The notes under the pieces: model-generated
What the model was told of the DNA's origin: nothing
The model's input: only the letters and a program-made list of their open reading frames with translations
The model's database searches: none
Translations under genes and position numbers: made by a program
Assembly: GCA_026391215.1 (NCBI GenBank)
Contig: JAPLDX010000068.1
Coordinates: 16,879 to 80,878, forward strand
Length of the DNA: 64,000 bases
Direction: 5' to 3'
From: Bacteroidia bacterium
GTDB lineage: Bacteria > Bacteroidota > Bacteroidia > Bacteroidales > VadinHA17
Shown: piece by piece, positions 14,398-46,022 of the stretch
How positions within the stretch are numbered: the first letter of the stretch is position 1
Layout: each line of letters opens with the position of its first letter

Positions 14398-14514
14398 CAC
14401 GTACCCACCCCCTAGCCCCCTCCCTACTGCGTAAGGAGGGGGAATAAATTAATAATCAGCCACATAGCCCCCTTCCTTGCGTAGCAGGGAAGGGGGTTGG
14501 GGGATGGGTACATG
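14398..14514. mobile_element. Non-autonomous 117-bp inverted-repeat element (two GC-rich hairpins, CAYGTACCCAYCCCC ends)
   Basis: Ends CACGTACCCACCCCCTAG / rc CATGTACCCATCCCCCAA (14/18 identical); hairpins 14416-14442 and 14468-14496; same architecture as 45401-45987. Confidence 0.7.
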
Positions 14515-45400: not shown

Positions 45401-45987
45401 CATGTACTCACCCCCTTCCTTCGCTACGCTCAGGTTTTCCCCCTCTCTGCTGAAGCAAAGAGGGAGAAGGATTCACCTAATAATGTCGTAGATTTTGTAT
45501 TTTTATATTGTGTTAAAAAAATATGTCTCAATCTAAGAAATTTGATATTAAAGGAATTAAGAAGCATGCTCAAGACCTGAGAAATAATATGACTGAATCT
45601 GAAAAACTATTGTGGAGAGAGCTTAAGGGAAGGAAACTATCAGGTTCTAAGTTTTTACGTCAGCACTATATACTTTATAAAGGCAATTTAACGAGATACA
45701 ATTATTTTATTGCTGATTTTTATTGTTATGCCCGGAAAGCTGTGATTGAACTTGATGGCCCGATTCATGATACTTCAGTCGAATATGATCAATTCAGAGA
45801 TTCGGAATTGCAGGAACTGGGTTTTCATATTTTACATATCAAAAATGAAGAGCTATCAAATATAAAAGAAGTTCTTTGTAAAATCATTTTATTTCTTAAT
45901 CGAATAAGCAAATAATCAACTAATTACACGAACTTACTCCCCCCTCTTTGCTTCAGCAGAGAGGGGGGCTGAGGGGGTGAGTACGTG
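45401..45987. mobile_element. Putative DUF559-nuclease mobile element with hairpin-bearing inverted ends
   Basis: Ends CATGTACTCACCCCCTT / rc CACGTACTCACCCCCTC; hairpins 45441-45464 (CCCTCT-c-TGCT-ga-AGCA-a-AGAGGG) and 45939-45968 (CCCCCCTCT-t-TGCT-tc-AGCA-g-AGAGGGGGG); single ORF inside. Confidence 0.75.
45523..45915 (+). CDS. DUF559 domain protein (Vsr/PD-(D/E)XK-like endonuclease)
   Basis: MTESEKLLWRELKGRKLSGSKFLRQH...YNYFIADFYCYARKAVIELDGPIHD...LGFHILHI. Confidence 0.9.
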   Translation: MSQSKKFDIKGIKKHAQDLRNNMTESEKLLWRELKGRKLSGSKFLRQHYILYKGNLTRYNYFIADFYCYARKAVIELDGPIHDTSVEYDQFRDSELQELGFHILHIKNEELSNIKEVLCKIILFLNRISK

Positions 45988-46000
45988 TTGTACAAAACAA

Positions 46001-46022
46001 AAACCCCGCTTTTGGCGGGGTT
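46001..46022 (-). terminator. Rho-independent terminator for the 46074..47546 minus-strand gene
   Basis: CCCCGC-ttttg-GCGGGG stem; minus strand continues GGTTTTTGTTTTG. Confidence 0.8.

Follow-up and report, generated by a model that had tools for sequence, protein, structure and literature searches.

Positions 45401–45987 of the window, i.e. the whole 64-kb stretch of DNA that was analysed, contain an element of 587 bp, delimited from the sequence and its inverted repeats, in which a nuclease gene lies between two inverted ends made of a box and a hairpin. The left end begins with the outer box CATGTACTCACCCCCT (45401–45416, + strand), a border type common to short sites in the same genome. 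It is followed by a 22-nt spacer (45417–45438, + strand), which direct comparison of both ends showed to be unique to the left end, and by the left hairpin CCCCCTCTCTGCTGAAGCAAAGAGGG (45439–45464, + strand), defined by repeat comparison and folding. The single open reading frame of 130 amino acids, already recognised in the first-pass annotation, encodes a DUF559 (PF04480) nuclease (45523–45915, + strand; Pfam E 1.2e-26). It is the only gene of the element, which lacks a transposase, and its orientation opposes that of both neighbouring genes. The right end consists of the hairpin CCCCCCTCTTTGCT-TC-AGCAGAGAGGGGGG (45939–45968, + strand), identified as an inverted repeat and by single-stranded DNA (ssDNA) folding, a second loop CTG (45969–45971, + strand), which leads from the G-rich arm to the box and with 3 nt has the modal length of the repeat class, and the right outer box (45972–45987, − strand; AGGGGGTGAGTACGTG on the + strand). 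This box is the inverted partner of the left box and the mirror of the hairpin's G-rich arm.

All features initially described for the inverted ends and their inner hairpins of the same design are present: each end combines an outer box (CAYGTACTCACCCCCT) with a mismatched hairpin whose inner stem is TGCT/AGCA; its apical loop, GA/TC, is 2 nt long, and the stem contains a single internal mismatch. The spacing between box and hairpin is unequal, with 22 nt on the left vs 3 nt (CTG/CAG) on the right. The flanks pair in a 31-nt inverted repeat (94%) and a 26-nt inverted repeat (81%). A search of the 64-kb window located exact GTACTCACCCC only at the two element ends. When one mismatch was allowed, five matches were obtained vs 0.5 expected, and none of 100 shuffles reached five. 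The same window holds another pair of this repeat type, GTACCCACCCCC...GGGGATGGGTACATG (14401–14513), which contains no gene and is absent from the first-pass annotation of the element. The z-scores of the ssDNA fold were −2.9 for the right unit and −1.2 to −1.6 for the left unit, and there was no Rfam match.

The hairpins might have been ordinary terminators, which, in the absence of empty-site polymorphism, the first-pass annotation considered fatal to the idea of an element. We rejected this reading, since neither element hairpin is followed by a T-run and the repeats occur as dispersed inverted pairs. The single terminator-like site found, at 46002–46022, belongs to the neighbouring gene. 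The genus is too diverged for an orthologous empty site of the window element to be identified; in one related assembly (G001) the two genes that flank it are on separate contigs.

The window protein matches Pfam PF04480 with 93.2 bits (cut-off 20.6), and the active-site residues E51, D80, E91, D93 and H97 are invariant among 28 diverse DUF559 members. For the structure search we used an AlphaFold2 model of one family member (mean pLDDT 84.8). The best PDB match was 3hrl, annotated as N. gonorrhoeae NGO0050, and the second was the catalytic domain of the homing endonuclease I-Bth0305I (3r3p), with a TM-score of 0.79 by target length and a sequence E of 3e-6. The element nuclease thus shares its fold with I-Bth0305I and the Vsr family. 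The first-pass annotation related DUF559 to Vsr-like PD-(D/E)XK nucleases, and E. coli YcjD had already been assigned to the PD-(D/E)XK superfamily, near Vsr (PMC1189080). Another DUF559 protein, Caulobacter VsrA, is needed in vivo for DNA damage signalling and for the SOS response in cells without a cytosine methyltransferase, and its proposed role is T:G mismatch repair in methylated YGCCGGCR motifs (PMC12907096).

Searching the element's own genome (3.39 Mb, 135 contigs) at the DNA level yielded 101 matches, most of them to the element ends. The closest were three other gene-bearing or part-gene copies, on contigs C16, C29 (one stop) and C3 (cut by the contig end) of genome G000. An internal-deletion derivative (C128:9210-9474) retains element bases 1–69 and 429–584, including part of the nuclease gene. 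We examined 18 short sites. Seventeen proved to be inverted pairs whose boxes face outward, of which sixteen measure 114–149 bp and the internal-deletion copy 262 bp. The CAYGTACTCACCCC...GGGGTGAGTACRTG border type, with at most two core mismatches, likewise occurs at 17 of the 18 sites. The criterion for REPIN/MITE-type derivatives, gene-less inverted pairs with the ends of a gene-bearing element, is therefore met at 17 of 18 sites. Direct repeats were not seen outside the borders of the 17 own-genome pairs, in line with the initial remark that no target-site duplication was obvious. Altogether, nine genes or gene fragments of DUF559 were counted in the genome, and the five remaining loci are flanked by hairpin repeats of the same design and other sequence.

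To assess bracketing more widely, we took 142 distinct DUF559 loci with usable flanks, compared the 300 nt on the left of each with the 300 nt on its right for an inverted repeat, and applied a score threshold of at least 14. Flank-to-flank inverted repeats were detected at 102 loci (72%) and at none of 141 same-spacing neighbour windows or 142 Markov shuffles; swapping the flanks among loci gave 11%. The other 28% of DUF559 loci remained under the threshold. Bracketing of DUF559 homologues by such ends, on which the first-pass annotation had made its model depend, is thus the usual situation. The gene was present in 110 of 197 sampled Bacteroidota genomes. For a cross-phylum check, 12 loci in plasmid-collection records of Cyanobacteria, Deinococcus and Alpha-, Beta- and Gammaproteobacteria were read by eye. 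Repeats were found on both sides of eight, on one side of three and on neither side of one. The nuclease-repeat system is a large class that extends over Bacteroidota, Cyanobacteria, Deinococcota and Proteobacteria, including E. coli ycjD with its BoxC repeats.

Nuclease and repeat are matched to each other. Nuclease identity correlated with repeat similarity (Spearman 0.29; maximum of 999 permutations 0.12; p=0.001), and matching repeats were found in 60% of comparisons at 70–85% protein identity vs 0.3% at 40–50%. Because repeats were compared across loci only between left flank and right flank, homology on the gene side cannot create this correlation. In the genus test, which comprised 58 genomes and was not corrected for phylogeny, the median number of cognate repeats per genome was 5.5 with a cognate nuclease vs 1 without (Mann-Whitney p=4e-4), and at least three copies were present in 14/16 genomes with the nuclease vs 14/42 without (Fisher p=2e-4). 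The reversed pattern occurred in none of the 58 genomes. The association is not absolute, since orphan repeats occur without the nuclease: three genomes from which no cognate nuclease was recovered are rich in repeats (G068, 27; G010, 23; G021, 17), and these are fragmented assemblies, which are apt to break at repeats.

Orphan repeats would also be expected if the DUF559 genes were mere passengers, captured between repeats that another enzyme (RAYT/Y1) or a host process moves. The genome does encode seven proteins that match Y1, all sited away from the element, which agrees with the initial description of an element without a Y1 transposase. Four of the six Y1 loci that we tested carry clear inverted repeats of their own, and the window repeat had no match at any of the six. 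The best match scores to it were 9–11 at Y1 loci vs 36–39.5 at the DUF559 loci L002 and L071. We therefore rejected mobilisation as a RAYT-dependent REP. Neither the nuclease-repeat correlation nor bracketing across phyla is expected of passengers, and we regard this explanation in its general form as improbable.

What relates the box to the hairpin? The first-pass annotation likened the box to a guide tetranucleotide as used by Y1 enzymes. We observed a different relationship, which resembles the intrastrand-triplex repeats described by Holder et al. (PMC4666352), with the layout C-stem, loop, G-stem, 3-nt loop, G-stem. The G-rich arm of each hairpin was compared with the box under the purine-motif triad rule, i.e. 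G opposite G and A or T opposite A. With the two in mirror orientation, triad compatibility with the unit's own box reached at least 90% in 48% of the 145 distinct boxed units. A direct-repeat match of box to G-rich arm was rejected, as the direct orientation fitted in only 6%; 200 box swaps gave a mean of 6% and a maximum of 12%. The second loop is 3 nt long in 49 of the 69 units that fit the rule. The right unit of the window element is 90% triad-compatible, with A/T opposite A. The mirror rule is a rule of sequence, and triplex formation in cells has not been shown.

DUF559 elements with their repeats are also inserted in frame within protein-coding genes, namely those of LeuRS (L097, L099, L139, L142), MetH (L247–L252), HsdR, HsdM, type ISP, DNA-methylase and GATase_5 (PurL-type) proteins. 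In LeuRS and MetH, repeat-encoded peptides lie on each side of the DUF559 domain. The metH element was found in seven genomes of one family with a sporadic distribution within genera, and congeners keep an uninterrupted linker. The repeat is absent from these empty metH sites; metH of one genome retains an apparent repeat-only scar. LeuRS and MetH copies share one clade of the DUF559 tree with one free-standing gene, so this lineage seems to have changed its host gene. In the hpa operon of two Deinococcus species, the DUF559 gene occupies one intergenic site in the first species and another in the second, so that each shows the empty site of the other. A separate observation concerns locus L100 (G028:C60), where an ORF at 1794–2591 (− strand) encodes tandem in-frame peptide repeats, KDPLPGGARGGF..., which stem from repeat units preceding a DUF559 domain.

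The strongest rival to a mobile repeat system is homing into alleles. DUF559 could be a homing enzyme whose target is either an allele lacking it or a repeat pair already in place; after cutting, its own gene would be copied in through double-strand-break repair, so that the repeats spread only as its flanks. Its nearest characterised relative, I-Bth0305I, is a homing endonuclease; the LeuRS and MetH copies fall into one clade with one site per host gene, and the sporadic occurrence in metH would suit homing as well. The other insertion sites, by contrast, are spread over intergenic regions and many genes unrelated to one another, gene-less inverted pairs outnumber gene-bearing elements and are themselves polymorphic, and the empty metH sites hold no repeat. 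Unlike I-Bth0305I, the element has neither an intron or intein nor a long DNA-binding extension in its protein, and it is bracketed by repeats and dispersed instead of residing at one cognate site. Homing into alleles thus appears unlikely as the sole explanation, and it could coexist with a mechanism that disperses repeats. In a further scenario, DUF559 would be a domesticated Vsr-like nicking enzyme of mismatch repair and the repeats would be regulatory or structural elements that happen to lie nearby. The repair role proposed for VsrA (PMC12907096) and the mismatch in the element hairpins could be cited for it, but it leaves bracketing, multi-copy diversity, in-frame insertions and empty sites unexplained, and we give it very little credence.

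In E. coli, the DUF559 gene is ycjD. Copy 9 of the TMECO repeat (MG1655 1,351,204–239), as listed by Holder et al., 2015 (PMC4666352), lies about 170 nt downstream of it, and E. coli KE47 has a second, inverted TMECO directly after the gene; the repeats of ycjD are on its 3′ side only. TMECO is a BoxC/PIT intrastrand-triplex repeat with 3610 copies in 262 proteobacterial genomes (PMC4666352). Repeats of the BoxC type have been known since the 1990s and are tied to genome instability, and the agent of their spread is unknown (PMC4666352). Holder et al. report no mobility functions near TMECO repeats, neither ycjD nor DUF559 appears in their main text, and they observed no triplex formation in vivo (PMC4666352). 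We counted 27 and 11 copies of the TMECO consensus CCCTCNCCCN3-6GGGNGAGGGN3GGGNGAGGG in two ycjD-bearing E. coli records, without a single copy of the reversed pattern. Inspection of the window hairpin and box showed that they depart from this consensus. A PF04480 control search of 14 named genomes gave no hit for E. coli, even though ycjD is present in K-12; this control may therefore be insensitive, or the strain may lack the gene.

BoxC pairs are polymorphic among E. coli strains, present in some and absent from others. The insertion between entC and fepB amounts to 186 bp relative to a strain with 99.6% identical aligned flanks, with merely a 3-nt TTA ambiguity and no clear target-site duplication, and that between mrcB and hrpB to about 102 bp. 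Alleles of different length also exist at alx-sstT and trpS-yhfZ, which were not read in detail. Internal deletions fuse the outer BoxC arms into a single hairpin in UTAK-18 (L304, mrcB-hrpB) and VL46 (L308, entC-fepB), and could be due to replication slippage or nuclease processing. The sapF-fabI interval was rejected as a clean empty site, as ycjD-lacking strains hold the eefRABCD operon (PMC12817139) there. At this locus, which carries BoxC repeats, ycjD and eefRABCD are swapped between phylogroups (L291, K-12 J53, vs L289 and L290 without ycjD). The empty sites that the first-pass annotation proposed to look for thus exist, both in orthologous coding genes (MetH) and between E. coli strains. 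Its reading as a mobile element is supported by bracketing, dispersal and empty sites, and the element proves to be no one-off but a member of a large class.

We consider it probable that the 587-bp unit is a REPtron-like selfish element in which a DUF559 nuclease of the Vsr/EDxHD type replaces the HUH Y1 transposase. The best-supported mechanism, which rests on association, specificity and mobility, is that DUF559 acts on its cognate box and hairpin and drives dispersal and loss of the repeats. In its cognate ends, a short loop of some 3 nt separates a C/G hairpin from an outer box that mirrors the hairpin's G-rich arm. Once single-stranded, on the lagging strand or during transcription or repair, such a repeat may fold into a hairpin or intrastrand triplex. 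DUF559 would recognise the folded structure together with the box and nick or cut there, and the repeat or the whole element would then be copied elsewhere, leaving no consistent target-site duplication. We know of no strand transfer by PD-(D/E)XK nucleases alone; a host repair or replication step that completes the move must therefore be assumed. Gene-less inverted pairs of the REPIN/BoxC type would be non-autonomous products. Association and mobility are shown by the data above; that DUF559 is the enzyme, that it recognises and cuts the repeats, that a structure is what it recognises, and the strand chemistry are all inferred in the absence of biochemistry, and we found neither a consistent target-site duplication nor an excision product. 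Counting against the model are also the repeat-rich genomes from which no cognate nuclease was recovered, the one-sided repeats of ycjD, the DUF559 loci under the bracketing threshold and the lack of observed triplexes in vivo (PMC4666352).

Like REPtrons (RAYT/TnpA-REP, GTAG REPs, REPINs), the element places a small nuclease gene between inverted hairpin repeats, with dispersed gene-less inverted pairs, repeat-specific enzyme variants and no obvious target-site duplication. It differs from them in its Vsr/EDxHD-type PD-(D/E)XK enzyme, with no HUH Y1 transposase, and in the lack of a GTAG tag: the window border is CAYGTACTCACC, and other DUF559 families have other boxes. Unlike a classical insertion sequence, it has neither a transposase gene nor an evident target-site duplication. 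With BoxC/PIT/TMECO repeats it shares the succession of C-stem, loop, G-stem, 3-nt loop and G box and the occasional inverted pairs, but the window repeat is of different sequence and has longer stems. Rickettsia palindromic elements, which are short and mobile and can lie in frame inside protein genes, offer a further likeness; to our knowledge, no nuclease gene is carried by them or paired with them. REP-style selfish repeats have so far, as far as we know, been paired solely with HUH Y1 proteins. No link of DUF559 to REP, BoxC or triplex repeats was found in the open-access papers searched. Subscription papers and preprints were largely outside this search, so priority cannot be claimed.

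A broader proposal, which we put forward only tentatively, is that DUF559 represents an unrecognised class of mobilising enzymes, present in at least four phyla, that recognises and spreads repeats able to fold into intrastrand triplexes. The orphan BoxC/PIT/TM repeats of E. coli and many other bacteria would then be its non-autonomous products, and its in-frame form would be a mobile element living inside essential proteins without splicing. The link between BoxC and DUF559/YcjD provides a concrete candidate for the agent of spread, which can be tested in E. coli K-12. If true, these findings would add a second type of enzyme for REP-style selfish repeats, give a role to a large family of 'unknown function' and explain why nucleases are found inserted in frame in LeuRS, in MetH and in restriction proteins.
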